Source of the DNA: Rhizophagus irregularis | Lineage: Eukaryota; Glomeromycota; Glomeromycetes; Glomerales; Glomeraceae | Reading direction: 5' to 3' | Assembly (NCBI RefSeq): GCF_026210795.1 | Contig: NC_089430.1 | Span: 4,836,001 to 4,900,000 of the forward strand | Length of the DNA stretch: 64,000 nucleotides | In this document: piece after piece, positions 7,953 to 62,424 of the stretch | How positions within the stretch are numbered: position 1 is the stretch's first letter | How the letters are laid out: every line of letters begins with the position of its first letter | Notes under the pieces: generated by a model | Told to the model about the DNA's origin: nothing | What the model saw: the letters and a program-made list of their open reading frames with translations, nothing else | Databases searched by the model: none | Program-made: the position numbers and the translations under genes

Positions 7953-10900
7953 TTAATTATTAATCGTATTAATATTCAATTGAGACACATCAATATGTAA
8001 AGATTCTATTTAATAAGTAAAAATTTATTAGTATCTTTAAAACTAATTTACGTTTTAAATAATGAAATTATTAAACGGTACCTGAAAATTCCTTGCTAAT
8101 TATATTATCATTTTGATCATAATAACCGTCGGAATTTTTTGGTTCTGGAAGTTTATCAGGATTAAGTAGTTTACTTGTGTAAGTAGCTTCTGAATGTGTA
8201 TTATATGATATTCCTAAATTATTTGAAGTTATATCGCTATTTGGTGAATTATTGTTGATTTCATCTGCTTCCTTAATTTGTGCTTGTAATTCTATTGTTT
8301 GCTTATCATTTGGTTCATATTGCCATCTAAGTAAAATTTTGTATATGTCTTCTGCTATTGGTCGGTTTAACGGATTGGAATCTAAGCATCTTTTAATTAA
8401 GTGCACAATTAATTGTGGTACTTTAATGTTAAACATTGGTCTAAGTCCTTTACAAATTTTGATTCTTAAAATAATATCATGGCTTAAATCATGATATGGT
8501 GGCAATCCAGAAATTACTTCATACATTATTATGCCAAAACTATAAATATCAGCAGCCTTGGAATAATTTTCTCCTCTTAAAATTTCAGGAGCTACATAAG
8601 GTAAAACACCATATGTCTCATTTTTCGTATTTTCTGATGTATAAAAATTTGCAGGCTTACATAATCCCATATCAGTTATGGCCGTTTTATTTTTAAACTT
8701 TAATATATTTCCAATATGTAAATCTTGATGAATTAATCCCTTTTCATGAATACATTTAAGTCCAATAATAGTATAATGTAAATATTTAAACATTTCAATC
8801 CAATTAAGCCTATTATATCCTTTATCTAAATAATTTCGTAAACTTCCATCTTCTGCATATTCTAGGACAATTATATAATTTTTCGTTTTTGGATCCTGAG
8901 TTATTCCATAGAATCTGACAATTGCATTATTATCCATTTTCACTTTATTATGCTGCATGATCTATGATGTAAATACAAAATATATTAATAAAACCAATAA
9001 TCTAGGTATTATGACCAAAAATAATAAATAAATTAATCAAATTATACCTCATTCATAAATCCTAATGTAACATTTTTTGAATTGTCTAAACTTTTCAGAG
9101 CTACAAATATATCTTTATTATATCTTTTCCAATTTTGGTTACTATCATCATCCCAATCAGTTAGATAACCACCAATCCAATTTGCTCTATACACTTTGCC
9201 AAACCCACCTTTTGCAATATATATAATATCATAAAAACTATCATAAGGTATCCATTCTAAAGCATTTGTAAGTAGTTCAATTTTATTATGTATTGATAGC
9301 TGACTGTCTTGAATAAATATATCAATATTATCATTACCACTAGTCCAATTTTCAAAATTTTGTTGAAAATGCATTGCATAACATGTATAATTACATTTTT
9401 CACATATAGTATTATTCAAAACTATCATATAACTTTTTGTTTCTGGATCTTGAGTTATTCCAAAAGGTGTATTGACCTACAAATACAAATATATTAGTAG
9501 AAATTAAAAGCTTCAAAATTTTATTAGTATTTAATTTATTATATATACCTTATCCATAATAAATTTTATTCTAATATTTTTTAAATTACTTAAACTTTTC
9601 AAGATTACACCTTTACTTCCATATCTTTTCCAATTTTTATTTTCATTATCCCAATACTCTAATGTTCCATCAATCCAATTTGCTTTATGCACTTTGCCAA
9701 ACTTATTTATTGTAATATCACACAGTCTATCATAAGGTATCCATTCTAATGCATTTGATATTTCGCTATCTTTATGAGCTGATAACTGAGTATCTTGAAT
9801 AAATTTATCAATATCATTATTACCACTAGTCCAATCTATGAATTTATGTTGAAAGTGTATTGTGTTACATATACTATTACACTCTTTACATTTATTATTC
9901 AAAACCATCATATAATTTTTTGATTCTGGATCTTGAGTTATTCCATAAAATTCATATTCTATTTTAATCTACAAAATGTATTAAATAATACTTAATAAAA
10001 ATTATAATATTTATATTTTACTAAATAAGTTTACCATACCTTGTTTGTAAATTCTATTGTAATATTTTCTGAATTATTTAAACTCTTTAAATTCACAAAT
10101 ATATAACGACCTTCTCTTTCCCAATCTTGATTTTTACTATTCCAATTAGTTATATATCCATCAATCCAATTTGCTCTATACACTTTGCTAAATTCATCAT
10201 CTGCAATATATTTAATATTATATAATCTATCATAAGGTATCCATTCTAACACTTCTTTTACATCTTTATGAGATGATAGTTGAGTATTTTGAATAAGTTT
10301 ATCAACATCATTACTACCACTAGTCCAATCTATGAATTTATACTGAAAGTATATTGTATTACATATACTATTACACTTTTTACAATTATAATTCAAAACC
10401 ATAATGTAATCTTTTGTTTCTGGATCTTGAGTTATTTCAAAAGGTATATTGATCTACAAGTACAAATATATTAGTAAAATTAAAAACTTCAAAATCTTAT
10501 TGGTATTTAATTTATTATACCTCATTTGTAAATTTTATTGTAATATTTTTTGAATTACATAGACTTTTCAGAATTACATCTCCACTTTCACATCTCATCC
10601 AATTTTGATTTGTATTATTCAATTTGTATATTTCTCCATCAATCCAATTTGCTTTATATACTTTACTAAACTTATTTTTTGAAATATCATTCAATCTATC
10701 ATAAGGCATCTGTTCTAATGCATGTTCTTCCAAGTTATAAGTATGTTCTGATAACTCAGTATCTTGAATAAATTTATCAATATCATCATTATCACTAGCC
10801 CAATTTTCAAAATTTTGTTGAAAATGTATTGAATTGCATAGTGCATTACACTTTTTACATTTATTATTCAAAACCATCATATAATTTTTTGTTTCTGGAT

Positions 10901-13900
10901 CTCGAGTTATTCCATAAAATTCATATTCTATTTTAATCTACAAAATGTATTAAATAATACTTAGTAAATTAAAATATTTAAAAATTTTGCTATATAAGTT
11001 TACCATACCTTATTCATAAATTTTATTGTCATATTTTTTGAATTATTTAAACTCTTCAAATTCACAAACATATTACAACCTTCTCTTTTCCAATTTTGAT
11101 ATTTATAATCCCAACCACTTATATTTCCATCAATCCAATTTGATCTATACATTTTGCAAAATTCAACATCTGCAATATATTCAATATTATATAGTCTATC
11201 ATAAGGTATCCATTCTAACATTTCTTTTAAATCTTTATGAGCTGATAACTGAGTATTTTGAATAAATTTATCAATATCATTATTACCACTAGTCCAATCT
11301 ATGAATTTATGTTGAAAGTATATTGCATTACACATTTTACTATCATTACACTTTTCACATTTATTATTCAAAATCATTAAATAACTTTTCGTTTCTGGAT
11401 CTTGAGTTATTCCATAAATTTCATATTTTATTTTAATCTATAAATGCAATAATACTTAGTAGAATTAAAATATTCAAATTTTGCTAAATAAATTTATCAT
11501 ACCTTGTTTGTAAATTCTATTGTAATATTTTCTGAATTATTTAAACTCTTTAAATTCACAAACATATTATGACCTTTTCTTTTCCAATCTTGATTTTTAC
11601 TATTCCAATTAGTTATATATCCATCAATCCAATTTGCTCTATACACTTTGCCAACTTCATCACCTGCAATACTATATTTAATATTATATAATCTATCATA
11701 AGGTATCCATTCTAATACTTCTTTTAAATCATTATGAGATAATAACTGAGTATTTTGAATAAATTTATCAATATCATCATTACCACTAGCCCAATTTATG
11801 AATTTATGTTGAAAGTATATTGTTTTACATATACTATTATTACACTCTTTACATTTATTATTGAAAACCATTACATATTTTTTTGTTTCTGGATCTTGAG
11901 TTATTCCATAAATTTCATATTTTATTTTAATCTACAAAATGTATTAAATACTTAATAAAAATTATAATATTTAAAATTTTACTAAATAAGTTTATCATAC
12001 CTTGTTTGTAAATTCTATTGTAATATTTTCTGAATTATTTAAACTCTTTAAATTCACAAACATATTATGACCTTCTCTTTTCCAATCTTGATATTCAATA
12101 TTCCGATAACTAAAAATATTATATTCCCGATCATCTATATCACTTATTATATATCCATCAATCCAATTTGCTCTATACACTTTGCCAAATTCATCTTCTG
12201 CAATATATTTAATATTATATAATCTATCATAAGGTATCCATTCTAACACTTCTTTTACATCTTTATGAGATGATAGTTGAGTATTTTGAATAAATTTATC
12301 AACATCATTATTACCACTAGTCCAATCTATGAATTTATATTGAAAGTGTATTGTATTACATATACCATTGCACTTTTTACAATTATAATCCAAAACCTTA
12401 ATATAACTTTTTGTTTCTGGATCTTGAGTTATTCCAAAAGGTATATTGACCTATAAATACAAATATGTTAATAGAAATTAAAAACTTCAAAATTTTATTG
12501 GTATTAAATTTATTAATTATTATACCTCATTTGTAAATTCTATTGCAATGTTTTTTAAATTACTTAAACGTTTCAGAATTACACTTTTAATTCCATATCT
12601 TTTCCAATTTTTATTTTCATAATCCCAACTCTCTATTTTTCCATCAATCCAAATTGCTTTATGCACTTTACCAAACTTATCTTTTGCAAAATACTCCAGT
12701 TTATCATAAGGTATCCATTCTAATGCATTTGATATTTCACTGTCTTTATGAGATGATAACTGAGTATCTTGAATAAATTTATCAATATCATTATTACCAC
12801 TAGTCCAATCTATGAATTTATGTTGAAAGTATATTGTATTACACATTTTACTATTACACTTTTCACATTTATTATTCAAAATCATTAAATAATTTTTCGT
12901 TTCTGGATCTTGGGTTATTCCATAAAATTCATATTCTATTTTAATCTATAAATGTAATAATACTTAGTAGAAATTAAAATAATCAGAATTTTGCTAAATA
13001 AATTTATCATACCTTGTTTGTAAATTCTATTGTAATATTTTCTGAATTATTTAAACTCTTTAAATTCACAAACATATTATGACCTTTTCTTTTCCAATCT
13101 TGATTTTTACTATTCCAATTAGTTATATATCCATCAATCCAATTTGCTCTATACACTTTGGCAAATTCATCATCTGCAATATATTTAATATTATATAATC
13201 TATCATAAGGTATCCATTCTAACACTTCTTTTAAATCTTTATGAGATGATATCTGAATATCTTGAATAAATTCATCAATATCATCATTACCACTGGTCCA
13301 ATTTTCAAAATTTTGTTGAAAATATATTGAATTGCATATTTTATTACACTTTTTACATTTTTCGCATTCATTTTTCAAAACTATCATATAATTATCTGTT
13401 TCTGGATCTTGAGTTATTCCAAAAGGTATATTGACCTATAAATACAAATATATTAGTAGAAATTAAAAAATTTCAAAATTTTATTGGTATTAAATTTATT
13501 ATACCTCATTTGTAAATTTTGTTCTAATATTTTTTAAATTACTTGAACTTTTTAGAATTACATCCTTACTTCTATATCTTATCCAATTGTTATTTTTATT
13601 ATCCCAATATTTTATTTCTCCATCGATCCAATTTGCTTTATACACTTTACCAAACTTATTTTTTGCAAAATCATCCAGTCTATCATAAGGTATCCATTCT
13701 AATGCATTTGATATTTCACTATCTTTATGAGCTGATAACTGAGTATCTTGAATAAATTTATCAATATCATTATTACCACTAGTCCAATCTATAAATTTAT
13801 GTTGAAAATGAATTGCATTACATATTTCATTACACGTTTTACATTTATAATTCAAAGCTATCATATAATTTTTTGTTTCTGGATCCTGAGTTATTCCAAG

Positions 13901-14383
13901 AGGTATACTGATCTACAAATACAAATATATTAGTAAAAATTAAAAACAATAAAATTATATTGTATAATATATTTATTATACCTTATTTATGAATCCTGAT
14001 ATAAAATTATTTGAAGTACTTAAACTTTTCAGAACAATAAATGCATTATGACCTCCTCTTTCCCAATTTTTATTTTTATCATCCCAATAACATATATTTC
14101 CATCAATCCAATTTGCTCTATACATTTCACCAAGTTCATCTTTTGCAATATACTTAATATCATATAATCTATCATAAGGTATCCATTCCAATGCTTCTTC
14201 TATATTATCATGAGCTAATAACTGAGTATTTTGAATAAATTTATCAATATTATCATTACTACTAGTCCAATTTTTGAAATTTCGCTGAAAATGTATTGCG
14301 TAACATGTATTATTACATTTTTTACATCTCTCGACATGTGATAACGTAGTTATCTTCTTAATACTTTTAATAAAAGAATCCAT
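7953..14383 (-). CDS. Giant protein-kinase-like gene with 11 tandem N-lobe exons and one C-lobe
   Basis: Predicted minus-strand exons: 14383-13982, 13912-13505, 13435-13013, 12945-12526, 12450-12001, 11931-11503, 11437-11009, 10937-10521, 10453-10040, 9968-9549, 9476-9048, 8961-8082, 8005-7953. The first eleven are multiples of 3 and all joins are in frame, giving ~1,857 aa. Each of the eleven ends in a kinase N-lobe (LEWIPYDRLY, loop, KVYRANWIDG, LKSL) preceded by a Cys block (CEKCN, WTSGN, DIDKFIQ). Only the last N-lobe has a proper loop (KGGFGKVYRA) and VALK lysine. The C-lobe exon has LIHQDLHIGNIL (Arg of HRD changed to Gln), TDMG in place of DFG, APE and DIYSFGIIMYE. Exon 1 starts MDSFIKSIKK. 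Introns are ~60-90 nt with GTATAA/GTATGA donors. The last short exon is conserved in the two paralogues. Kinase activity is uncertain; a scaffold or sensor role is equally possible. Confidence 0.75.
9048..13912 (-). repeat. Tandem array of ten duplicated exon-intron units (~490 bp each)
   Basis: Exons 2-11 of the kinase gene repeat with a period of 430-510 bp, introns included. Each exon starts with the kinase beta4-beta5 segment (GITQDPETKNYMMVL) and then switches to the Cys block and N-lobe. Two subtypes recur: NKFGKV/VILKSL (units 2, 4, 8, 10) and DEF-KVYRA/FVNLKSL (units 3, 5, 6, 7, 9). Unit 5 is longer through a ~10-residue insert. Both exon ends are phase 0, so any number of units keeps the frame. 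Confidence 0.85.
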
Positions 14384-20300: not shown

Positions 20301-21314
20301 CTCGTGCATTTGATATTAGACTTTAAATTAAGCTATTTCTTAGTTAATTAAATTAATAAACATCAAATTAAAAATATTTATAATAAAAAAAAAATATATA
20401 TAATAATAAGTAAGATTGAAATTATTATCTGTTATACATTAATTAAAAAGTATGCAATTGTTATGAACATTACACTTAATCGAAGATTTTAATATAACAC
20501 TAATATTCACATTACGCTGGTAATTATAACGAGTTGAATATTTCAGCAAAAAATTATAATTTTATAGTAAAAAGTTTTCAACATTTTAATTTATTAACAA
20601 TTTAGTGATTTTTATTAAAATTTAAAAAATCCAAAGTTGCTACAGAATGCAAAAAATCGAAATTATTTTGATGAAAAAAAAAAGTATTTAAGAGAAATTA
20701 CAAATAGATAAATTTTTGTGAAATTAGTATCAATTAACAAAAGTCATATTAGATACTTCAGTTGACAAACAACTTGTCTTTCTTCATTATTAATTAATTA
20801 ATTGATTAATTGCAGCATTATTTTCAACAATAGAATTTCATATGTACCGTTTGGGTCAAAATTGCAATATTTTTATTTCCAAATTTTGATTTTTTGATTT
20901 TTCGTATGATTATTTGCCTCTATATAAATTACCAGATTTGAATATTAATTACCGAAATTTCTATATTTATAAAAAATGATATCAAATTTATGTAAGCCTT
21001 TTCATAAACAAAAACGTAATTTATATCCCAAATGGTAACTGATTCAAATAATGAAAAATGATTTTCATATTGCATGATACAAAACAACATGTAGATTCTT
21101 CCTTTTTTGAATCAGGCGGCATTATGTAATTTTGGCTCTGATCTTTTGTTACCTAATTATATATTATTCAGGTTTACCTTACGTCCTTACGCAGAGAAAA
21201 TTGACTTCCATTTATATAACCTTGGGCGAAGTTTTTTTTTTTTCCTAATTCAAAATTTATTTTTATTTTTTAAAAAAATTTCTTACATTCTTTTACATAA
21301 AGCAAAAAGCTTCA
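17326..21314. other. Long intergenic region between the divergent kinase genes
   Basis: About 4 kb of AT-rich sequence without supportable genes. A truncated R1 repeat copy is at 19013-19074. The stretch 19370-19690 is pyrimidine-rich with an open frame of 66 codons from an ATG at 19484, low in complexity and not credible as a gene. A TTAATTAATTAATTG tract is at 20790-20810. Confidence 0.45.
19013..19074 (+). repeat. Dispersed repeat family R1, copy 3 (truncated)
   Basis: TTACTATGGTTGAAA and TTCGACGATGTTTAGATTA match copy 1 (3505-3578); the downstream GAATTGTGTAAC block is missing. Confidence 0.45.
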
Positions 21315-24202
21315 ATGGAATTGAAGTTAATTAATCATGATATTTCTGCTATTAAAAATAATATAAAATGTTTTAAGAGTAGTGATTTATTTATTCATCT
21401 ATCAACACATAGTAAATATGAAGCAATATTTAGAAGAAAATTGGAATGGATTCCTTATAATAAATTTTGTGATGTTAAATATATTGTAGTAGACATGTTT
21501 AAAAAAATGTATAGAGCAAAGTGGATTAATAAAAGAAACAGTGTGTTTCTAAAAAGTTTAGATGATCCAAATAACGTTACACCGGAGTTCGTAACAAGTG
21601 TATGTTTGAATTTATTATTTAATGAAATTTTTTCAAACAATCTTATTTATATTAACGTAATTTATTATTATCATAGATTACAGTACTACATGAAATTTAT
21701 GGAATAACTCAAGTCCCAAAAACAAAAACTTTTATGTTAGTTTTGAATGAAATGTGTGAAAAATGTAATATTATATGTAGTGCGATGCATTATCAACAAA
21801 ATTTTGAAAATTGGACTAGCGGTAATAATGATATTGACAAATATATTCAAAATACGCAGCTATTAGCACATGTTGGTCATAAAAATTCATTGGAATGGAT
21901 ACCTTATGATAGATTCTATGATTTTAAATATGTTGCAGAAGGCAAGTTTGGCAAGACGTATAAAGCAAATTGGACTGATGGAAATATAAGATATTGGTAT
22001 AGTAATAATTGGATAAGAGAAAATCCAAATATGCTTGTATTTCTGAAAAGCTTGAAAAATTTAAAAGATATTACATTGGAACTTAATGAGGTATAATATG
22101 AATTTGTATTATAATATATAATTGAGAACTCAATTTCACTAAATACTAATGTATTGTTTTTGTAGATTACGGTACCTCATAAATTCTATGGAATAACTCA
22201 AGATCCAAAAACAAATACTTATATGGCAGTTTTGAGTGAAACATGCGAAAATTGTGATAGTATATGTAATGCAATACATTTTCAACGAAATTTTGAAAAT
22301 TGGACTAGCGGTAATAAAAATATTGATAAACTTATTCAAGACACCCAGCTATCAGTACATAGTAAATATGCATCAGTAATTAAAAAAATATTAGAATGGG
22401 TACCTTATAATAGACTTTATAATATTAAATATATCTCAGAAAGCAATTATAAAGCAACTTGGATTGATGGATGTATAGATAAATGGGATCATCATAATAA
22501 TAAAACTTGGAAAAGAAAAGAACAGAATTTGATTGTATTTCTGAAAAGTTTAGATAATCCAAATAATATTACGTCAGAATACATAAATGAGGTATATTAA
22601 ATTTATTATTTAATGTATGAAATTTTTTTTTTAATTTTGATTTTTACTATGTTTATATTTGTAGATTTCAAAACATTATGAAGTTTACGGAATAACTCAA
22701 GATCCAGAAACAAAGAATTATATGATGATTTATAATGAAGTATGTGGAAAATGTAAATATATATGTAGTGCAATACATTTTCAACGAAATTTTAAAAATT
22801 GGACTAGTGGTAACATAAATGTTGATAAATTTATTCAAGATATTCAGTTGTCAGTTCATAAAGACACTAATATAAGAAACGTATTAGAATGGATACCTTA
22901 TGATAAATTTAACAATATTAAATACATTGGGAAAGGTGGATTTGCTAATGTGTATAGTGCAGAGTGGGCAATAAATGGTCAACATAATAAATTGGTCGCT
23001 CTAAAAAGTTTAAATAATTCAAAAAATATTACATTAGAATTTATGAATGAGGTATGATTATTTTATTTTATTTATTAAGAATTTCGAAATTTTGCTTTTT
23101 TGTAATATTTATTATATTTATTAATATTTCTTTTATATATATATATAGATTGCTTTACATAACAAAATAGGAAATTCTTTTTCTATTATTGATTTTCATG
23201 GTATAACTCAAGATCCAAAAACAAAAAATTATATGATGGTTTTGGAATATGCAAAGGAAGGAAGTTTACGAAATTATTTAGATAAAAATTATAATGAATT
23301 AAGTTGGGATGATAAATTACTTCATTTATATTATATTTCATCTGGACTTGTATCTATTCATAAAAATGGTTTAGTTCATCGAGATTTTCATATAAGCAAC
23401 ATATTGGTATCCAACTACACAAAAATAACTGATATGGGATTATGTAAACCTGTAAATTATGATGCATCAGAAAATACAAAAAAATGTATATATGGTGTTT
23501 TGCCTTATATTGCTCCTGAGATTTTACAAGGTCAAAGTTATACCAAAGCTGCGGATATTTATAGTTTTGGTATTATTATGTATGAAGTAATTTCTGGGTT
23601 ACCACCATATCATGATGTAAGTCATGATAAAAATTTAGCGATAAAAATTTGTCAAGGGCTTAGACCAAAGTTTAACATTAAGGTACCACAATTAATCGTG
23701 CATTTAATTAAAAAATGCTTAGAAGCAAATCCATTAAATCGACCAACAGCAGATGAAATTGAAAAAATTTTATGTAGTTGGCGTGATAATCGTGTAGTAG
23801 AATTACAAAAACAAATTAAAGAAGCAGAAGAAATGAATAATAAATTACTAGCTGGTGGTATACATTCAACCAATTTAAGAGTATCATATAGGACACATTC
23901 TGAAGCTATTTATACAAGTAGATTACTTAATTTTGATAATCTTCCCAAACCAAAAAATTCTGATTATTATTATGAAAAGAAGGATACTAGTATGAATAGC
24001 ATTGAATCTTCAGGTACTGTGCGTTTAATAAAAAAAAAAAAATATTTAAAACAATTATAATAAATGCTAACTAAAACTTTATTTATTTTAATTAGCGCCA
24101 TTGTCTTTACAAATTGATGTTTCAAAATTGAATATTAACTACAATAATAATCCCGCCAAATCGAAAAATTCTGGTGCTTATTATAAACAAAGGATATTAT
24201 AA
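21315..24202 (+). CDS. Protein-kinase-like gene with four N-lobe exons and one C-lobe
   Basis: Predicted exons 21315-21599, 21677-22090, 22166-22591, 22665-23051, 23149-24013, 24096-24202; the total is divisible by 3 (~827 aa). Exon 1 lacks the Cys block and has a poor loop. Exons 2-4 have the Cys block (CEKCN, CENCD, CGKCK), WTSGN and an N-lobe. Exon 3 has lost the glycine loop (ISESNYKATW). Exon 4, next to the C-lobe, has the best loop (GKGGFANVYSAEW) and VALK. The C-lobe shows LVHRDFHISNIL (HRD and Asn present), TDMG for DFG, an APE segment, DIYSFG and a helical tail (LQKQIKEAEEMN). The final exon (LSLQIDVSKLNIN) is shared with both paralogues. It lies head-to-head with the giant kinase gene 6.9 kb away. 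HRD is intact, so activity is more likely than in the giant gene. Confidence 0.78.
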
Positions 24203-26206: not shown

Positions 26207-26303
26207 AACTGGAAATGATTTCTATTTGATCACAAGGTGGTACAATGCAGTTGCATTTTACATAAGGTTTCAGCCATTAAAATTGGTAACCAATTTTTTA
26301 ACA

Positions 26304-29300
26304 ATGTTAAAAGAAACGAAAGAAACCGACCCTAAAGAATCAAATTATTATGTCGATTGGTTAGACAAATCGATTGCAAATGAATACTTCAATTATTATG
26401 AATTTTCGGAATTTAAAAATTTAGAACTTATAGGAAGTGGTTCATATGGAAGTGTCATTCGTGCTAATTGGAAAAATATTGAAAATTTTTTCGCTTTAAA
26501 AACTTTTAAAAATTATGACAATATAATGTTAAAAGAACTTGTTAATGAGGTAATTAATCTCGGCTATCTTCATAAATTTTACAAATTGAAATTAAAATAT
26601 GATTTCTTTTCCAGATAAAATTACAAAAAAGAGTTGATTTTCACGAGAATATTATACGGTTTTATGGCATCACGAAAGTGGAAGCTGGTAAGATTCAAGT
26701 GCTAGCATGTGTTACATTAACGTTTTGGTTTAACACACTCTTTTTTATCTAGAAAAATATTCGTTAGTCTTAGAATACGCCGACAATGGTACACTAAAAA
26801 CTTATTTAAATAATCATTTTAATGGACTTAATTGGATTGATAAATATCAGTTGGCATTTCAACTAGCTAATGCAGTAGAATGTTTACATGATTGTAATAT
26901 TATACATCGTGATCTGGTAATAACAAATTACTAACTTATAATTTGCTATTTTAATTATAATCGTATCGTACTAAGGTTTTCATTTATAATAATAGCATGC
27001 AGATAATATACTTGTACATGGGAAAAAGATAAAGTTAACAGACTTTGGTTTATCAAAAAAAATTTCTGAAGCATCAAGCAAAACATCAAAAATATTTGGT
27101 GTAATACCTTTTATCGATTCAAAAAAATTATATGATCAAGGTTACAAATTAAACAAGAAATCTGATGTATATAGCGTCGGAGTTTTGATGTGGCAAATTT
27201 CAAGTGGCCGTCAACCTTTTTCTGATTATAATTATGATGCAATTTTATCCTTGTCCATAGCAAATGGCAAGCGAGAAGAAATTATTGACGGTACTCCTAA
27301 AGAATATTGTGACTTATTTGCAGGTAATGAATATGATTATAAATATTTTTAATTCATTAATTCATTTATTAATGTGATTTATTTTAACCAGAATGTTGGA
27401 AAGATGATCCAGATGAACGTCCAAATATACAAAATGTCGTTTCTATTCTTTATGAAATAATATTTCCCAAACAAGAAGGTATAACTATTACTGATAATGT
27501 TAATAAAGAAAAAGAAAATAACCAACTGAAAAAATTTGAACCAATTTCTAAATCAATCGAAACCATGGAATTAAATAATGAATTGATATCATATAATGGA
27601 TTAAATATAAGTTGTGAAAATAATTTATCAAGTTCATCAATTCAAACAAATATATCAAAAATTTCATATGGGTCAACATTTGATAAGACTAATAATATAA
27701 TTGTTCAAAAGTTAATTAAGGTTATAAATAGAAAACATGATAAGGAAAGTATTAATTTTCGAGATTTTCAACAATTTATCAATCAACAAGTATTTGAATT
27801 AAATCTAAGTTCAAATAATCTTATTAAATGGCTAACTAAACAAGTAAATCCACAATATAATTATTTACTTGGACTACTTTATTATTATAACATCTGTACA
27901 GAAGAAAATAGTACAAAGCATTGGAATTATTCTTGAAAGCATCTAAAGACAATTATTTGACTGCACAAGTTTATCTTGGAAAATGTTATAATGATGGATA
28001 TGGAATTAAATGTAATAAAAATTTGGCATTTGATTGGTATCGAAAATCTGCGGAGAATGACAGTATAATTGGACAATTTTATTTGGGAAATTGTTATGAA
28101 TTTGGCATTGGAACTGCAAAAGATTTTATAAAATCAGTACATTGGTATAAAAAAGCGGCAAAAAGAGGAAATACAAGTGCAAAACTAAATCTTGCAAACT
28201 GTTATAGATTAGGAAAAGGTGTTGAAAAAGATGAAATTAAAGCGTTCATGTATTATAAAATTTTAGCCAAACAAGAAATTTCAGATGCTCAATGTCAACT
28301 GGGAGATTGTTATTATAATGGGATTGGAACGAAAATAGATGAAATACAAGCTAAATGTTGGTATGAAAAGGCAACAAAAAATGGAAACATTGTTGCAAAA
28401 GATAATCTTTTAAAGTACTATGATAAAAGACAAAAGTTAAAAATAAGTAATATTAAGGAAATTAAATTTCAAAAAAGATTAAGTTTTAAAGGTTTCAAAT
28501 ACTTTATGACTAAATTTACAAAAATTAATCAAGAAAATATATTTAGCATAGTTCAAATAGTGGCAGAAAATAAAAATAAAGGGTTGCCATTTGATTTAAT
28601 TAATCACTATAAAAAAGATAAAGGTGTAAGAAAAGATGGAAGAAAAGCTTTTGAATTCCATAGACTTTTAGCTGAACAAGGATATATAAATGCAAAATTT
28701 CAACTTGGATATTGTTATGATGAAGGAATTGGAATTGATATTAGTAAAGTAAAAGCATTTGAATTATATAAAGTAGCAGCAGAAAAAGGAAATAATGAAG
28801 CACAATATAATTTGAGTATTTTATATGAATTAGGAGAAGGAGTTGATAAAAATGAGGAAAAAGCATTTGAAATAATTAAAAAATTAGCAGAAAAAGGAGA
28901 TCCGGATGCAAATTATAAACTTGCTTACTACTATAATAAAGGAATCGGAACTGAAATTAATAAATCAAAAGCATATGAATCATATAATATAGCAGCTGAA
29001 ACAGGAAACAATGAAGCACGATTTAATTTAGCCATATTATATCAATTTGGAGTTAGTGATGATAAGAAGAAAGCATTTAAATTAATGAAAGATTTAGCGG
29101 AAAAAGATGATGTAAATGCTCAATTCAAACTTGGATATTATTATGATGAAGGAATTGGAACTAAAATTAATAAATCAAAGGCATTTGAATTATATAATAT
29201 AGCAGCTGAAAAGGGGAGCAATGAAGCACGATTTAATTTATTTAATTTAGCCATATTATATCAGCTTGGAGATGGAGTTAATGAAGATAAGAAGAAAGCA

Positions 29301-30542
29301 TTTGAATTAATGAAAGGTTTAGCAAAAAAAGATGATGTAAATGCTCAATTCAAACTTGGATATTATTATAATGAAGGAATTGGTACTGAAATTAATAAAT
29401 CAAAAGCGTTTGAATTATATAGTATAGCAGCTGAAAAAGGCATTAAGGCACAATATAATTTGGCCATTTTATATCAATATGGAGAAGGTATTAATAAAGA
29501 TGAAAAGAAAGCGTTTGAATTAATAGAAAACCTAGCCGCCGAAAATGATTTAGATGCTCAATTACAGCTTGGATATTATTATTATGAAGGAATTGGAACT
29601 GAAATTAATAAATCAAAAGCATTTGAATTGTCTAAAGTAGCAGCAGAAAAAGGAAATACTGATGCACAATTTATTTTAGGTACATTATATCAAATTGGAG
29701 AAGGAGTTGCTAAAAATGAGAAAAAAGCATTTGAATTAATAAAAGATTTAGCTGAAACAGATTATTCAGATGCTCAATTTCAACTTGGATATTATTATAA
29801 CGAAGGAATTGGGATCAAAAGAGATCTTAAAAATTCCTTTTACTGGCACCAAAAAGCAGCAGAAAATGGCAATAAAACCGCACAGTATGATATAGGTGAA
29901 AGCTATGAATTAGGAATTGGGACTGATAAAGATTTAATTAAAGCATTTTATTTTTATGCAAAATCGGCTGAAAATGGAGATATTTGTGCAAAATTTCAAC
30001 TTGGATACTGCTATATAAATGGTATTGGAACGGAAATTAATAAAGTAAAAGGATTTGAATTATATAATGAGGCGGCTGGCACTAATATCCAAATTAACCT
30101 TATTGAAAATGATGAAGAAATAGTAAATGATTTAGACAAAGTTAATTATTAGTATCACAAAGCTGCAGAAAATGACAGTAAACTTGCATTATATAAATTA
30201 GGTGAATTTTATGAAGCGGGCATAGGTGTTTGTAAAAATGAAACACGGGCTTTTGAATTCTATAAGGAATCAGCTGATCAAGGGTATATAGATGCTCAAT
30301 ACAAAGTTGGGTATATTTATAATTATGGAACCCAAATTGATATTGATAAAGAAAAAGCATTTAATCACATTAAGATTGCTGCAAAAGGAGGAAATGTTGA
30401 TGCACAATACAGCCTCGCATCTTTATATGAACAAGGAGTAGGAACTGAAAAAAATACCGAGAATGCCATTTATTGGTACAAGAAAGCCGCAGAAAATGGA
30501 TGCCAGGAAGCTGAAAAAGGTTTAAACTTATTATTAAAATAA
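26304..30542 (+). pseudogene. Kinase-Sel1 repeat fusion gene with one frameshift and one nonsense codon
   Basis: Exons 26304-26549, 26615-26687, 26753-26916, 26996-27323, then 27392 onwards. The start is the ATG of MLKETKE. Kinase domain: loop [17 protein letters not shown] lysine, HRDL split by an intron from [13 protein letters not shown], and FGVIPFID in place of APE, then [11 protein letters not shown]. All catalytic motifs are present. After a Ser/Asn-rich linker come ~18 Sel1 repeats of ~36 aa ([25 protein letters not shown] type), which form helical solenoids that bind partners. The frame breaks near 27917, where one A seems missing in ACAAAGCA, and a TAG at 30150-30152 sits where repeats usually have Trp. 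Sel1 coding continues in the same frame for ~130 codons to 30542. The breaks could be real decay or sequencing errors. Confidence 0.7.
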
Positions 30543-36954: not shown

Positions 36955-38270
36955 TTAAAAAATAAATTGAAATATATACGTACCAACATTATCTTTAATT
37001 GTTAATTGAGAAATATCAATTTGTAAAGATTCTATTATTTTAATGAAATAAGATATATTAGTATTTTTCACATTTAATTCATACAAAATTATTACAGTAT
37101 TTACCTGAAAAATTTTCACTAATTATATTATCATTTTGTTCATCATAATAATCATCTGAATTTTTTGGTACTGAAAGATTATTAAAACTAAGTAATCTAC
37201 TTGTATAAACAGCTTTGGAATGTGTTTTGTATGATAAATTAATTAAAGGTATACTGCCAGTTGGTAGATTATTGTTGATTTCTTCTGCTTCCCTAATTTG
37301 TTTTTGTAATGCTGTTAATTCTGTTTCATTATCAATATGTCCAGATTCTAAATCACCGGATTCATAATACCAATGATATAAAACTTTTTCGACTTCATTT
37401 GCCGTAGGTCGATTTAATGGATTTGCATCCAAGCATCTTTTGATTAAATTCACAATTAATTGAGGTACTTTAATATTAATAAATCTTGGTCTAAGTCCTT
37501 GACAAATTTTTATTGCTAAATTTTTGTCATGGCTTACATCATGGTATGGAGGTAATCCAGAAATTACTTCATACATAATTATACCAAAACTATAAATATC
37601 AGCAGCTTTAGTATAATTTTGTCCTCTTAAAACTTCAGGAGCAATATAAGGTAAAACACCATATATACTATTTTTTGTATTTTCCGATGCATTATAATCT
37701 GCAGGTTTACATAATCCCATATCAGTTACTGTAACTTGAGATCCAAAACTAAGTATATTTCCAATATGTAAATCTCGATGAATTAGTTCTTTTTCATGAA
37801 TACTCTTAAGTCCTAGTGTAATATGCCATAAATTTACTAGCTTAGCACTCCAAGTTAATTCATAACGATTTTTATCCAAATAAGTTCTTAAACTTCCATT
37901 CTCTGCATATTCCAAAACCATCATGTAATTTTTTGTTTCTGGGTCATGTGTAATTCCATAAACTTTAGCAACCGAAATTTCTTCATCTCCAATAGTTTTA
38001 CAATGCATTGTTATCTAAATATACATTTAAAAAATCCGTTAGTAAAAATCGCATTTAAAATTAGAAATTAAGTATTACCTCATTAATGTAACGTTTTCTG
38101 AATTATTTAGACTTTCCAGTGCTACAAATGACGTCGTTTCCAATTTTCATTTATGTTATCCCAACCTCCATCAGTCCATTTGCTCTATACACTTTTCCAA
38201 AACCGCCTTTTGCAACATATTCAATATCACATAATTTTATTTTAAGGTATCCACCCTAATATTTGCTAAT
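36955..38270 (-). pseudogene. Third kinase copy: intact C-lobe exon, decayed N-lobe
   Basis: C-lobe exon 38014-37105 is fully open (303 codons plus one base) with HRDLHIGNIL, TDMGLCKP, APE, DIYSFGIIMYE and the helical tail; the last exon is 37031-36955 (LQIDISQLTIK). Upstream, 38262-38079 still reads VAKGGFGKVYRAN and VALES, but has at least two frameshifts and a stop near the WIP motif, and the ATP-binding Lys codon has become Glu (VALE for VALK). No Cys block or start exon is found beyond 38270. C-lobe sequence is closest in style to the plus-strand gene at 21315. It is probably a pseudogene with recent loss, since the C-lobe shows no stops. Confidence 0.7.
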
Positions 38271-51399: not shown

Positions 51400-52900
51400 T
51401 TGAAATCCATGCCATATAATTAAAACCCGTGACATACCTCCGTCTGATCTATTTATCCGTGTACATTCCAATCAACTAATATAATTTCATTTTACCTTCA
51501 AACTGAAAAAAATTTTTTCTTCCTTTCTTCTTTCGGTTTAGTTTTTTTTTCAAACCGAAAATTTGATTTTTCTCATTCTTTTCCCATTTAGGTTTAATTT
51601 TTTTCCCAAACTGAAAATTATTTTTTTTTTCGAATTATTGCAAAATTTTTTTCGATACTTATTTTTTTCAGATTCCTTTTTTTTCAGAAATTTCCCTTTT
51701 TTTTGAACCAATTTCTTTCTTTATCCTTTTTCTTTCCCCCAAATTTATTTTTAATTTTTTTTTTCTTTTAATTTTTTTTTAAAAAATCACGCTGGATAAA
51801 TAGTTTGATTTTCAAATTCATAAAAATCAAAAAAAAAATTGATATTTTTACAATATTTTATAATTAATTAATTGAAGAAATTGTTGATTTAATAATAGAC
51901 TATTATAACCAAATCCATATCCAAAATTCTCTAAATAATCACCAGATTTTTGATTAAAAATTTTAATTCAAATGGTTTAGTTAAATTAATAATTTATCGA
52001 ATAAAATGAGTATCAAAATAATAATAAATGAAATGAACAGATTTCTAATACATTTAAATGTTCAAATATTTTTCCTAAGTTGGTTATAAGTTTAAGATTG
52101 ACGTAATAAAAATAAGAAATAATTAATTAATATACATATTAATATTTGTAGTATTTTCATAATATTTAAGTTTTTTCAATAAAAATTAATTTTTTAGAAG
52201 TATTCTTGATAATTATTTTTTCACAATTCCTAATTAATCCGAATTTCACTCTACGCTCAAACATCAAATCATTAATACATTATTCTAAAAAAAATGTATA
52301 AGAAATAGCAACACGAAAATAAAAATAATTTATTATTTATATCATTCTAATATTATAAATAGAGCTCCGAATGGGTCAGGTTAGGTCAGGTTTAAGGTTG
52401 CTTGCCGAAACCTGTTTGGCCTAATGCCGAAAGGTGAAACCTCTTATATAGTGCCGAAACGCCGAAACGCCAAAACGCCGAAACCTGTCAAAATTGCGAA
52501 ACTGCCGAAACATGCCGAAACCTCTATAATAGGTTTCTCTGTAGTTTCGGCATAGTTGATCATAAGATTTGCATATAGTTACGCCAAGTTACACCAATTA
52601 ATAATATAATTTAGATGATCAAATAATCTACAAATAAAAGATTAAACTTCAATATTTTACTGTCGTCTTAGTTCTTTTAAGCTTTATCTAGTGTTAGAAT
52701 TTTCATTTCTAACTCCCATATTAATATTATGATATTACACGTTTTTACAGTTTTTTTTTAAGGGGCTTATATTCATTAAAGGAAAATGCGTAACATGCAT
52801 TTAATAAACCCAATTCCGTCATCTCCTTTAACACTGAACTAAAGTTTCTTTTACTTTCTTCCATTTTCTTAATAATAATATTAATAATAAACTGTTTCAA

Positions 52901-55201
52901 ATGACTGATCACATAGAAGATTCACCCATTAAAATGAAAAATAGAGGAGGTCGGCCACCTAATAGCATTTGGGAAGATATTAATAAAGGAGAAGCTGTTG
53001 GTTCTGGCAAATTTGCCGCCTCCTGCAAGTACTGTAAGAATACATGGTCACGCGGTGAAGTTTCAAAGCTCGAAGAGCATCTTTCAAACCATTGTCCAGA
53101 TGCGCCAGCAGCAGTTGTTAGAAGGTATATGACTAAAGTAATAGAACGGCAAGATAAGTCCAAGTCATCCAAAAAAGAAAAATACTCTGAAGGTCAAAGT
53201 AACATGGATGATTACCATGATTCAACAGAGCTTAACGAACAAAGATGTACACGAATTAATCGTGCATTAGTTAAATTTTTTATTGCGTGCGGAATTGCGT
53301 TTAGAGTAGTGGAACATCCCTTTTTCATCAATTTTATAAAAGAGCTTAATGCCGGGTACAATACACCAACAAGGGAAGTATTAGTAAATCAACTACTTGA
53401 ACGTGAATTAGCTCAAGTGAACTTCAAAGTTAATTCTGAGCTTGAAAAGGAAACGAATTTAACGTTAGGTTTGTTAAATTAAATAGGCTATCATACGTCA
53501 TTTTTATTTAATCTTACTTACTATATAATATTAATTTATAATTTAGCCTTTGATGGTTGGACGTCTGGTACACATCGTTCAATTTGGAACTTCATTGTAA
53601 TGACTCCGTCGCGTAAAGAATATCTTTATCAACTTTCTGATTTGTCTGAAAATTCGCACACTGCAGAATATCTAGTTACAGTAATTGAAAAGGTTATAGA
53701 AGGTATTGGAGAAGATCGAATATGTGCTGTAGTTTCCGATAATGCGGCCAATGTTCGTAATGCACGAAAAATTATACATGAGAATCATCCAAAGATTGAG
53801 AATGTGCGATGCGTTGCACATTCTATCAATTTAATTGCATGCGACATCGTCAAGGAGAAGTTTGGGGAACGTTTATTAAAACGTGTTAATATTTTGACAA
53901 CCTTTTTTAGAAGTTCTCATCAGGCTAATGCAAAACTTGCTCAAATAATTAAAGAAAAAGGAATTAGTGGAGGAGGATTAAAATTATATTGCAAGACACG
54001 CTGGACTACTGCTAGTGAATCCGTAAATTCAGTAATAAATTTGGAATCAGCACTAGAAGAAATGGCCAGCGATCACGATAAAGTGCTAACAAATGATAAA
54101 ATAAAACCGATTATTCAATCGAGAAATTTTTTTTCAAATTTACGAGTTCTTGGGTTTGTTCTGGATCCTCTAAGAAAAGCGGTACTTTCATTAGAATCGA
54201 GAAGAGCTACACTTGCAGATTGTTTCCTGAGCTTGGCAAGACTTGCAGCTACATTAAAAAAGTTACCCAAATCATTAAATCCTGCATTCCGAAGTCATTG
54301 TATCAAAGTAATAAATGAAAGATTTGATGAATTCGATGATGATAAGTATATTACTTGTTTTTTTATGGATCCCAGATTTAGAAACGCGCCACTTAAAAAA
54401 TGCGCCCTCATGAGAATTATCAAATGTGCAGCTTCAATCGGGAAAAATTTAGGTTTCGACCGTTACGAAGCTGAAACTTTATGTGATCAAATACAGAAAT
54501 ATATTAATGAGCAAGAGCCATTTGACCTAGATATCGGTTTTGCTAAAGATAATCCTGTGAATTGGTGGAAATATATTAATACCGAACCAGAACCAGATGT
54601 CCTGCCAAGAATTGCAAGTTATCTATTTGCAATATGTCCTAACTCAGCAACTTGCGAACGTGGATTTTCGACTTTAGGATGGCTATTTCATAAACGTCGC
54701 TTAAATCTTAATGTGGATAAACTAGAATCCATGTGCAAATTAATTTTGTATTGGAAATCCAATTCAAAAACTGAACTTGGATTTTATGGAATTGATCAAA
54801 AAAAGAATACTCGTCTTAGTGATGATGAGATCAATATACGTATTGCAGAAGCTTTTGCAGAAGATGACGATGAGGAATATAATGAGGAGCAAGCTTCTAC
54901 TCAGAGATTAACTACAAGCGGCGAAACAATACCCGAAGACAATTGCCGTGTAGTAATCGAAAGTCTATGGATTGATCAATTTGTTAATTTATCGCATGAT
55001 TCAATTACTAGTGAAATCGGCGATATTCCAAGAGATATATTGGATGATTCAGATGAAAATAATGCGGAAGATGATGAAGTTGATGATAGTGGTAATAACA
55101 AGAGACCCGGAGAAGGTGACTATGATTATGATATAGATGATGTATTAGGTATGGATGACGGTGATAATAATGACGATAATTATGATGATAATGAGGAATA
55201 A
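52901..55201 (+). CDS. hAT-family transposase (BED zinc finger, DUF659-like core)
   Basis: Two exons, 52901-53468 and 53547-55201 (phase 1 join, donor GGTTTG, acceptor TTTAG), giving ~740 aa without stops. The N-terminus has a BED-type zinc finger (CKYC, then EEHLSNHC). The core begins AFDGWTSGTHRSIW, with the first catalytic Asp region; VVSDNAANVRNA and VRCVAHSINLI follow, matching the second Asp and the C-x2-H motif of hAT transposases. The dimerisation region has ATCERGFSTLGWL and KLESMCKLI. A ~130-aa acidic tail ends in DDNYDDNEE, longer than usual. The enzyme would cut and join DNA at the element's TIRs in the nucleus. The two-exon frame is intact, so it is potentially functional. Confidence 0.85.
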
Positions 55202-58215: not shown

Positions 58216-59728
58216 GCACATTTGTGCCAATTAAAATTTGCAAAATTTTATTAATTAAATTTTGATTTATGAATTATTTATTTTTTATCAAAATTAATCT
58301 AGCTCTAAGCCTTAATTGAAATAAATAAATAGTGCATTTATTTTCCATCTTTCTGGATTTTTTTTTATAATTTCATTTATTGAATAAATAAAATAATTCA
58401 TAAAATTATGGAAAATCAAAATTATATTGTCTTAAGCGAAAATGAAGGTTCTAGTGATGAAATTGCAGAAATTACTCCAATACCATCAAGAAGAGGACGC
58501 CCTGCAAAATCATCTAAAACATTTGGAAAACAAAAAATGGCAAGTACTAGTGAAAAATCAGATCAAGAATCATTAACTGCATTTGAATCAACAAGTCAAA
58601 TATCAAATGATTCAAATCCCTTTAAGCAAACTACTTCAAAAATCAAGCCACAAACAAAAGTAAGTTGGGTATGGGATTATTTTGTTAAAAAGCAAAATGA
58701 AAGTGGAGAAGTACGTGCATATTGTCAGTTTATATTAGAAAATGGGGAAAAATGTTCAAAACACTATAAATATGATGGATCTACAGGAAATCTTAGTTAC
58801 CATGCTATTAAACATGGAATTACACCACCTACAGAAAGTATTACATCTGAAAATAAATCAATGCCAACTCAATCTACTATGTCCAATATTAATGGACAAA
58901 AAGAAAAAGAATTATCTACATTACGATGGATTCTTTTAACAACCCAACCACTTTCTACTGTAACTAATAAGGCCTATATTGAGCATATGCATATTATTGA
59001 TCCAATATTCACAGTTCCTGGAGCAAAAAAAATAAGAATGATGATTGCTCGTAGTTATGGGTATAATAGAGATAAATTAAAGCTACTTTTAAAAACTGCT
59101 CAATCAATATCTTTAACTACTGATTTATGGTCTTCTCGTTCAAAACATGGATATTTGGGTTTAACAGCAACTTGGATCAATAAAGATTTTGAAATAATGG
59201 ATGTTTTGCTTGAAATTTCTTATTTTCCAACCCCACATACTGCACAAGCAATTACTGAAGTAATCAAAAAAGCTATTCAAAAATGGGAAATTGAAAGCCA
59301 GGTTATATCAATAATAGCAGATAATGGAGCTAATATAGTAGCTGCCATTCGAGATTTAGAACCAATTAAAAGACTCTCTTGTGCTGCCCATACCTTACAA
59401 TTGGCAATTAATAAAGGTTTAAAGGTTGTAGAAGATTTGGTATCACGTGTAAAACAATTAATCAATTTTTTTTCCACTCAAAAACAAATTGAAAGACTGA
59501 TTAACGTTCAAAAAGACATTGGTTATAAAGAAACATACCATTTAATACAAGATATATCTACTAGGTAAATTTTTTACATTTAATTAATTACTATTCAATT
59601 AAATTTTAATATTTTATTATTATAATTTTAATTAAAATTTGATGTAATTTTATTTGATTATTTAAGGTGGAACTCTTCTTATTTAGCATGGGATAGGCTT
59701 ATTTTTCTTCAATATGCAGTACTTCAAC

Positions 59729-62424
59729 TAGGGTATGGAAGAGTTCAGGTCCAGGACTTTAGGACTGAGTCTTTGAACTCAGTCTTGGTAAGACCTAGTC
59801 CTAATTTTGGGACTTAATTTGGACGGTCCCAAATCGGTTTTTATAATAAACAATATAAATAAATTTAGAGATTAATTTCGCAGATCTTTACTGCAATTTA
59901 ATAAGTCATGTGAAATATGTAAATCATGACACGTCTCTTACCGTCAAAATTTTCGCGTTTTGCATTTTACTTTACTTCACTCTTCCCATTGTTTTTTCCT
60001 TCCCATTAAATTTTTCAGTAAAAATGTCTTATTCGAATTATGATTTTGAAGATTTTAACAATTTTGATGAATTTGAACCTTTTGAACAAGATGCACCTCC
60101 TATAGAAGATGAAGAAAATGATGATAATGATGACAGTGAAGAAGAAACCTCACCTCAATCTCGCCGAACTTCACCAACATGGAAGTATTTTAACGAACAA
60201 ACAACTCAACATCCAGGATATCCAGTTTGTTGCAAATGTCAATGTGTTTTTGGAAAAAAAACTGGAATTTCAACTTTAAAACGACACTTAGAATCTATAC
60301 ATAAAATAAAGATAGGAAATGTCAAAAATACAGGAAAGAATCAAAGTATTTTGAATTTTAGGCAAACTGATCCTTGGCCTGAAAAAGAAAAAAATGAACG
60401 AGATATTGCAGTAGTAGAGTGGGTAATTGGAGATGCACAACCCTTCCGTTCTGTTGAAAATTTGCGATTTAAAATTATGATCAATAAATTTGATTCTCGA
60501 TATCAAATTCCAGATGAAAAAACAGTAAAAACTTTGGTAGTTGATTATTTTAAAGAAAAACGTAAAAATATACAAGAAGATCTAAATGCAATTCCGGGCA
60601 AATTATCTTTAACAGCCGATATGTGGACTTCAACATGTAATAATGATGCATTTCTTGGCCTGACAATTCATTATGTTGACAATAATTGGAACCTAAAAAA
60701 CTTTTTATTAGATATTATTTCTTTTACTACCCGTCATACTGGAAATAATATAGCAAATGCAATAAAATCAGTTTTAACAGAATTTAATCTACTTGAAAAA
60801 ACTTTGGCTTTAACTACTGATAATGAATCGGCGATGGTAGTTTGTGGAAGAATAATTGCAGAAGAACTTACAAAAGAACTTAATGATCAGTCTTTTCGAC
60901 ATTATAGGTGCTCTGCACATATTTTAAATTTGGCCGCGCAGCAAGGAATTAAAATTATTGATGATGAGGTTGTTAAAATTCGTGAGTTAATGAAAAAAAT
61001 TAAACACTCAACTCTAAGGTGTGATAGATTACGAGAATTGTGTTCAATAGAAAATTTAACATATTACAAACCACAATTAGATGTTGAGACCAGGTGGAAT
61101 AGCACCTATTACATGATTGTAAAATTCCAAAAAATGTTGCGACCTATTGAAATGTTAGCTGCAACAGATCAAGACATTAAAAAATTCGTACCGGACGCGC
61201 AAGGATGGATAAAAATAAATGTAAGTGTTAGCTATTCTTCATTAATAACGATATTAACATTAATTAATAACATAACTAATCCAAAAAATAAACTACATTA
61301 TGACTAATTTACAATATAAATAGGATACACTTACGTTACTGGAACCATTAGAAAAAGCAACAGTATTGCTTTCAGCTTCCTCCTATCCCACCATTTCTGA
61401 TGTAAGGTTTTTGTTTCTTGGAATCCAACAACATCTAAACGATTATATTGGAAAAGAAGAATTTAGTCAAAGTGAAGTAGCATCATCAATACTTCAAAAA
61501 ATTGATCAGTATTGGGAAGTAGTGGATTCATCTACCTTAGCGTCTACGGTACTAGATCCACGCACAAAACTTACTTTGTTTTCTGCTGGAGAAGAATCAA
61601 CAAATGCAATTAATGCAGTAAAAAGGCGTTTTTCTGAATATCATACACCAATGTCTCAACCAGCTGTAATTAATCATGATAATGGTGAAATAGCAAGCAC
61701 TCGTGATTACTTTCATCAATTAAAGAGGAGGCGATTAAATAATAGTACCGCATTAAATATTACAAGACCATCAACTGGAATTTATGAGGAGATTGACCGG
61801 TATCTTGCTTTGCCATGTGATGATAATGTTGCGCCATTGCTATGGTGGCAGGTTCATTTTCGAGAGTTTCCAGCATTAGGTGCAATGGCACGAGACTATT
61901 TATCCATTCAGGCTACTAGTGTTGCGTGTGAGCAAGCATTTTCTGTGGCGAGTAATACTATAACTCGCACAAGAAATAGATTGCAACCAGATACGTCTCG
62001 TGCATTATTGTGTTCAAAAAGTTGGCTTGAAAAAGGAATAGGAAAGAAAAGAAATTAAGAGTAATGGGTAACGTTTAATTGTTTATAGTAATATAATCAC
62101 TGTATATACTTTTATTAATCAAGTTCAGAAAAATTTTTTTCAACTTACAAAATAAAAAATGTGGCTTTGGTGGGAATTATTACAACGCCATTACTTAAAT
62201 GGTTAGCATTTTGATTATCGACGAATTAATAAATTTTTTTTGTAGCTCGTAATAAATAAATTATTTAAGTATTTTTTGTTTAAAATTAACCAATCAATTC
62301 AATCGGGACTAAGTCCTAACTTAAGTCCTAGTTTCGGTCCTTAAACTGGGTCCGGTCTGTCCATGTGCCAGGACCTGTAAGTCTTGGGACTTTAACCGGA
62401 CTGTAACGGACTTTCCATTCCCTA
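59729..62424 (+). mobile_element. hAT element nested in another hAT, TSD ACTTCAAC
   Basis: TSD ACTTCAAC at 59721-59728 and 62425-62432. TIRs TAGGGTATGGAA (59729-59740) and TTCCATTCCCTA (62413-62424), one mismatch. Subterminal AGGACT/AGTCC motifs repeat at both ends (59745-59830, 62300-62410). The single gene inside is intact (60024-62058). An identical TSD and intact gene suggest recent transposition. Confidence 0.9.
60024..62058 (+). CDS. hAT-family transposase, intact, two exons
   Basis: Exons 60024-61220 and 61324-62058 joined in phase 0 (donor GTAAGT, acceptor AATAG), ~643 aa, no stops. The start is the ATG of MSYSNYDFEDF; the frame is open further upstream but only from a GTG. Acidic N-terminus (~65 aa), then a BED zinc finger (SPTWKYFN, CCKCQCVF, LKRHLESIH). 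Catalytic core: LSLTADMWTSTCNNDAF with the first Asp, LALTTDNESAMVV with the second, CSAHILNLA, DVETRWNSTYYMI. C-terminal dimerisation region: LLWWQVHFREFPALG, IQATSVACEQAFSVASN and TRTRNRLQPD. Of the three transposases here it is the least damaged together with the one at 52901. It would act on the TIRs at 59729 and 62413. Confidence 0.88.

Follow-up and report, generated by a model that had tools for sequence, protein, structure and literature searches.

A predicted kinase gene of Rhizophagus irregularis with ten loop-less N-lobe beads before one complete kinase domain

The window, that is, the whole stretch of 64,000 nucleotides of the Rhizophagus irregularis genome that was analysed, contains on its minus strand a gene that runs from an ATG at position 14383 down to 7953. 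When the gene model was rebuilt, 13 exons joined in phase into 1,857 amino acids without a stop; the first-pass annotation had proposed 13 exons with all frames kept and about 1,857 amino acids, and the rebuilt model has the same coordinates (7953-14383) and the same length. Eleven of the exons are tandem units of 402–450 bp, each of a length that is a multiple of 3, and the 11 unit introns are short (65–86 bp), with GTAT donors and TAG acceptors; a 76-bp intron separates the C-lobe exon (8961-8082) from the tail exon (8005-7953). All introns are of the GT..AG type, and the phase is 0 at 11 of 11 unit junctions. The units are of two types, which follow one another from 5' to 3' as A B A B A A A B A B A (assigned by eye). 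A second array gene lies on the plus strand. The features are the following:

13982-14383, minus strand: unit exon 1, type A; starts with MDSFIKSIKK, then Cys block and beta1-alphaC; the loop reads KDELGEMY, with IVLK
13505-13912, minus strand: unit exon 2, type B; opens with beta4-beta5 of bead 1 and continues with bead 2 from Cys block to alphaC
13013-13435, minus strand: unit exon 3, type A
12526-12945, minus strand: unit exon 4, type B
12001-12450, minus strand: unit exon 5, type A; has an insert 3' of WIDGYI
11503-11931, minus strand: unit exon 6, type A
11009-11437, minus strand: unit exon 7, type A
10521-10937, minus strand: unit exon 8, type B; its nearest relative is unit 12 of 14 in the sister array L001
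10040-10453, minus strand: unit exon 9, type A
9549-9968, minus strand: unit exon 10, type B
9048-9476, minus strand: unit exon 11, the terminal one; opens with beta4-beta5 of bead 10, followed by the Cys block and an intact N-lobe (IAKGGFGKVY, VALK, alphaC Glu)
8082-8961, minus strand: C-lobe exon; remainder of alphaC, beta4-beta5, hinge, HQDLHIGN, DMG, APE
7953-8005, minus strand: tail exon; ESLHIDVSQLNINTINN, stop
21249-24057, plus strand: second array gene, with 3–4 units; a degenerate one that has no recognised Cys block comes first, followed by two internal units, a terminal unit (GKGGFANVY, VALK) and a C-lobe

Unit exon 1 has no beta4-beta5 at its start. The window exons that follow it begin with a version of GITQDPETKNYMMVL, which corresponds to kinase beta4-beta5, and continue with the Cys block and beta1 to alphaC (these names are taken from the analogy with known kinases, not from a structure). 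Exon and bead are not the same thing, because the beta4-beta5 strands of each bead open the next exon; after splicing, the predicted repeating bead consists of the Cys block, beta1-beta3, alphaC and beta4-beta5, which is a whole N-lobe. The ten internal beads align to residues 3 to 153-155 of the terminal kinase, from the N-lobe to the hinge, with 48–56% identity; they end after beta5, where the next Cys block begins, and do not have the full bilobal fold of a pseudokinase domain. We deduce the fold of the beads only from their homology to the terminal N-lobe: Pfam detected no kinase N-lobe in the five single unit exons scanned and did not recognise the three beads scanned as kinase, and AlphaFold2, run on the terminal unit exon with an alignment of the window's eleven units, gave a pLDDT of only 39.6. 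The shift of register between exon and bead, a shortened alphaC-beta4 stretch (see below), the two alternating unit types and the second array gene in the window are features that the first-pass annotation did not include.

The terminal bead joined to the C-lobe scores 137.6 bits against PF07714 in Pfam (the cut-off is 23.1), over positions 7-257 of the 258 of the profile. Its translation reads VALK, FMNE, HQDLHIGN, DMG and APE, so that the expected Lys, Glu, Asp, Asn, Asp of DxG and APE are all present. It departs from the usual motifs in that HRD reads HQD, DFG reads DMG and the first glycine of the loop is an alanine. This part of the protein is thus predicted to be a kinase of the TKL type (PF07714), which looks active.

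The same build is found elsewhere in the genome. A search with a unit-like query, in which the best 150 of 4,461 candidates were scored, gave at least 150 unit matches, none with inner stops, in 57 clusters; among these best 150 of 4,461, 31 of the 57 clusters have at least two matches. Because 150 was also the number scored, it is a lower bound, biased to good copies, and 6 of the window's own 11 units are among them. Two samples of loci were then considered. The first consists of 15 loci chosen because matches clustered there. The second, which is less biased, was obtained by taking every eighth of 89 family-type C-lobe matches, picked from 139; this gave eleven matches, one of which (L014) had already been selected. 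At the sampled loci, units were identified with a profile of the window's units (E up to 1e-6) over about 5 kb upstream, a procedure that may miss distant units. In the less biased sample, at least two units are present at 4 of the 11 loci (L014, L022, L023, L025), and at least eight at 2 of 11.

Altogether, 17 arrays have six pieces or more, and all of them (15 were chosen for their clustered matches) combine a terminal unit with an intact loop and internal units with a defective one. Since this arrangement is common to 17 of 17 arrays and few neutral survivors are expected (see below), the pattern goes beyond chance. The largest number of internal copies is 14, in L003 and L010. The first unit has no beta4-beta5 start in 15 of the 17 arrays; in L008 and L014, the first visible unit is at the edge of the extracted stretch. 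Among the 17 C-lobes, 16 have the catalytic loop HxDxHxxN in this form, and in L006 the loop is longer by one residue. The L005 C-lobe shifts frame after residue 154, and that of L007 is cut by the edge of the extracted stretch. Smaller members of the family also occur: L025 has two units, the terminal one being itself in two frames, and the single-unit genes L017, L018 and L024 have the same layout, with Cys block, N-lobe and C-lobe in two exons. As a separate observation, L022 (3371-4894, minus strand) belongs to a divergent subfamily (YGISQNPDTKDY) and has three units, of which only the last has its loop in the form GKGGFSTV. The fact that L022 shows this build suggests that the latter may reach beyond one clade.

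Assembly errors often arise in tandem repeats, and the first-pass annotation had named an assembly artefact as one of the findings that would undo its reading. We reject this explanation, whose probability we consider negligible: within the window array, the ten internal units are distinct from one another (amino acid identity 49–85%, median 62%), and arrays with other sets of units are present at many loci. The first-pass proposal of a string of pseudo-N-lobes before one C-lobe is supported, and the recurrence of the build in other genes of the genome suggests that the predicted protein represents a genuine type and did not arise by accident.

What distinguishes the internal units from the terminal one can be specified by comparing them over the 17 arrays, the window gene included (17 terminal and 145 internal units; only full units are counted, and 8 partial pieces, making up 4 units, in L006, L010 and L014 are excluded). 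The GG pair of the loop is present in 17/17 terminal units against 2/145 internal ones (both in L005), and the alanine of xAxK in 17/17 against 0/145. The glutamate of alphaC is found in 17/17 terminal units against 34/145 internal ones, 24 of the 145 being unaligned at this position, and the third glycine of the loop in 15/17 against 103/145. The second glycine remains in 7/145 internal units (L004, L005). The GG pair is mostly replaced by Asp-Glu, with D in 102/145 and E in 92/145. On the contrary, the beta3 lysine is there in 17/17 terminal and 137/145 internal units, and in all 11 units of the window gene, which leads us to reject the idea that this lysine was lost. The first-pass claim that only the last unit has a glycine loop and the VALK lysine is therefore right for the GG pair and the alanine and wrong for the lysine (VxLK is found in 11/11 units); its other statement, that the ten remaining units have lost the loop glycines without acquiring stops, was confirmed in the rebuilt gene.

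Other positions are nearly invariant in the internal units. The three cysteines and one histidine (profile columns 23, 26 and 30 for Cys, 61 for His) are kept in 142/143, 143/143, 143/145 and 142/145 units; this Cys3-His set is a candidate metal site, as far as sequence can tell. The single-unit relative L024 has CEECNQ..WCHTCN. In the motifs WTSGN, EWIPY, ANW and LK, every position is conserved in at least 93% of the internal units, except the G of WTSGN, and the beta4-beta5 start of the internal exons has G in 128/130, I in 122/130 and T in 124/130.

In a tree of the units (n=173, quick method), terminal and internal units do not form one split: 11 changes are needed, against a mean of 22 when labels are shuffled, and at least 4 of them are forced by starred branches. 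On this tree, the loop may have been lost in one event or in several. In L005 (2389-3800, plus strand), three internal units have the second glycine of the loop, and two of them the GG pair; these appear to be either a half-way state of the loss or a converted copy.

The internal beads are also cut short between alphaC and beta4. Between the start of an exon and GIT lie the residues that complete the preceding alphaC; they number at most 9 in 137/138 internal junctions, against 16–18 in 20/20 C-lobe exons; in the window gene, about ten residues between alphaC and beta4 are missing from the internal beads. This bears on the idea that the beads act as decoy or dominant-negative N-lobes, which would pair with a C-lobe in cis or in trans and keep kinases inactive. 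It is so that the beads align to a whole N-lobe and have kept the lysine of beta3 in most cases (the 137/145 above). The end of alphaC and the alphaC-beta4 stretch are a main contact region between the lobes of a kinase, and this is precisely what is shortened in nearly all internal junctions, which argues against the pairing of a bead with a C-lobe. We consider this decoy function very improbable.

Two different views can be taken of how the exons are used. In the first, they are a menu for cassette or alternative splicing: transcripts would contain one or a few of them, and long strings would rarely be made. All 11 unit exons of the window gene have lengths divisible by 3 and are in phase 0, so that skipping any of them preserves the frame. 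The same holds in the family: over 20 multi-unit genes, the donor is in phase 0 in 154/158 junctions, the acceptor in 154/158, and the frame is kept in 150/158 (6 further junctions were not scorable; acceptors were chosen by distance, not by phase). Dscam is a known example of homologous tandem exons of one phase, a property that the window array shares. The difference is that the units considered here are not interchangeable: the GG pair and VALK are only in the terminal unit in 17 of 17 arrays, so that the units are not equivalent choices of a kinase. Moreover, the conserved beta4-beta5 start of an exon makes up a complete N-lobe only when spliced to the unit before it. We find the menu unlikely. 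In the second view, towards which we lean, a single transcript would run through all the phase-0 exons, as is suggested by their conservation.

The arrays change in length and content. Units are more similar within an array than between arrays (median amino acid identities are 71.3% in the same array and 60.6% in other arrays), the median identity being 65–85% in the other 16 arrays, several of which include single pairs above 85%. The sister array L001 has 14 units, against 11 in the window array. The terminal units of the two arrays are 95% identical, window unit 8 and L001 unit 12 are 91% identical, and most of the remaining units have no clear one-to-one partner. Different numbers of units, mostly unpaired, are the pattern that unequal exchange gives. 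We infer that, in the simplest and likely origin, sequence immediately following beta5 became joined to sequence immediately preceding the Cys block; unequal exchange of the repeats, of about 490 bp, would then have multiplied the units. No relative of the unit was found in IMG/VR, where 47 matches to the pattern were obtained and none was confirmed by tblastn. The divergence of introns looks lower than the dS of exons in some arrays (L002, L004 and L010), a comparison based on introns of 40–140 bp only, which probably misses many of those of L010; we draw no conclusion from it.

The question then is whether the internal units are maintained. Since the way in which full units were identified excludes stops, the fair figure is the number of broken units. 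There are 3 of them among 149 internal units (two in L010, whose pieces do not share a frame, and one in L006, interrupted by an in-frame stop); the rest of the 149 are the 145 full units and, in L014, one unit that has a deletion but is open. Under neutrality, simulated with an intron spectrum, only 3.6 (star tree) or 0.8 (per-array trees) of 145 units are expected to be open. A search of the three gaps longer than 220 bases, and of the sense strand preceding the arrays as far as the extracted stretches reach, detected no decayed unit; it disregarded weak antisense matches that lie upstream of L006.

The substitutions indicate that the constraint is loose. Compared within arrays, the internal units have a pooled NG86 dN/dS of 0.66; for terminal units, compared between arrays, it is 0.43. 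In individual arrays, the values for internal units range from 0.45 to 1.15; they are under the simulated neutral 95% range in 14/17 arrays and inside it in L010 (0.84), L015 (0.72) and L023 (1.15). The tree-based omega for internal units is 0.72, against simulated neutrality. The lowest regional value (0.34) is in columns 41-59; omega is 0.50–0.65 in beta4-beta5, beta3, EWIPYDR, ANWIDG and the Cys block. It is higher around the loop (0.77), in columns 60-66 (1.06) and in alphaC (1.16). In the beta2-beta3 insert (columns 99-116) of the internal units, omega reaches 1.37 (N 625, S 79, compared to 665 and 116 under neutrality), and over columns 93-116 it is 0.52 in terminal units against 1.25 in internal ones. 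The excess, computed over the insert as a whole, is no more than suggestive, the model used having no recombination between units. The internal units are coding and constrained, but loosely (omega about 0.7).

It could be argued from this looseness that the string is a tolerated by-product, in which a recombination-prone exon was duplicated in tandem under relaxed selection and the beads have no function. An overall omega of about 0.7, three arrays within the neutral range (L010, L015, L023), copy numbers that vary between sister arrays (11 and 14 units) and damaged genes in the family (L005, L025) are what one would expect in that case. On the other side, about 141–144 of 145 units should be broken under neutrality, while 3 of 149 are; the splice phase is kept, the pattern of loss is identical in every array examined, and the structural positions are nearly invariant. 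A functionless string seems to us quite improbable.

The reading towards which we lean, with moderate confidence, is that the gene encodes one long protein in which non-catalytic N-lobe beads form a putative binding or assembly array for a single TKL-type kinase. An ancestral TKL-type kinase, with one exon for the Cys block and N-lobe and another for the C-lobe, would have gained a string of extra N-lobes; the product would consist of ten beads, whose nucleotide loop is unusable and whose alphaC-beta4 stretch is shortened, followed by one complete kinase. The beads cannot be kinases, because they have no C-lobe of their own, and they also lack the glycine pair and part of alphaC; this makes a repeated binding or assembly surface their most likely role. 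Such a non-catalytic surface may draw partners, or further copies of the kinase, to the active-looking domain, and the variable beta2-beta3 insert would be the best candidate for the contact surface.

A more specific proposal, which we find rather unlikely, is that N-lobes serve here as a repeat domain for recognition (of self and nonself, of a partner or of a host signal) and are permanently coupled to a single kinase, probably in tens of genes of this plant-symbiotic fungus: an array that is loop-less, recombining and of variable length, with a fast beta2-beta3 insert, would then be used much like the WD or ANK arrays of fungal NLRs.

We found no description of strings of kinase N-lobes before one C-lobe in the open-access papers searched, in agreement with the first-pass remark that the architecture had not been described. 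The closest ideas are the following. JAK and plant tandem kinase proteins contain one or two copies of a dead module that is a complete, bilobal kinase domain. The likeness is that a dead module derived from a kinase lies beside an active-looking kinase in one chain; the difference is that the family of the window multiplies the N-lobe alone, in up to 14 internal copies. The repeats of high internal conservation in fungal NLRs are described in PMC4986451 as more than 85% identical over at least 100 amino acids. The window array, with a median of 62% and a maximum of 85%, lies below that threshold. There are likenesses with what that paper reports, in that the length of the array varies among relatives, units of the same gene are more alike, and there is a fast-evolving patch (PMC4986451); on the contrary, the repeat is a half-domain of a kinase in the family of the window, and Pfam found no NACHT, NB-ARC or NOD domain and no WD, ANK or TPR repeat in 6 of the 12 large exons, the joined terminal kinase and three beads.

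Kinases are numerous in R. irregularis: 2,533 kinase genes are given in PMC10234402, and PF07714 is the most frequent motif among the expanded kinase genes according to PMC6123716. Long-read cDNA data of R. irregularis DAOM197198 are also reported in PMC10234402. The expanded kinases and the family of the window have in common a domain of the PF07714 kind, and L017, L018 and L024 share the two-exon layout. In the parts of PMC6123716 and PMC10234402 available to us, domains are counted and classified, with no mention of N-lobe strings. Judging from its sequence, the kinase belongs to the known PF07714 expansion, while the repeated half kinase domain sets it apart from the nearest known ideas, pseudokinase-kinase tandems and the repeats of fungal NLRs.

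As a rule, the kinase N-lobe is regarded as one of the two halves of a bilobal enzyme. If the family is real, then the N-lobe alone can exist as a separate repeat module, and, if the reading given above is true, it would provide a handle on the purpose of part of the very large set of kinase genes in such fungi. Since the copy number differs between sister arrays (11 and 14), isolates can be compared directly.

Last, we note some other features of the window. A C-lobe exon of the same family as the window gene is present at 37082-38014 (minus strand), with no unit-like frame in the 2.6 kb upstream; it is perhaps an orphan C-lobe. The region 26208-30539 (plus strand) contains pieces that match the C-lobe profile, with DFG, at 26.7–27.3 kb, and then long open frames which resemble, by eye, Sel1 repeats. 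Long open frames at 52838-55198 and 58384-63473 (both on the plus strand) resemble, again by eye, zinc-finger or hAT-type transposase genes.
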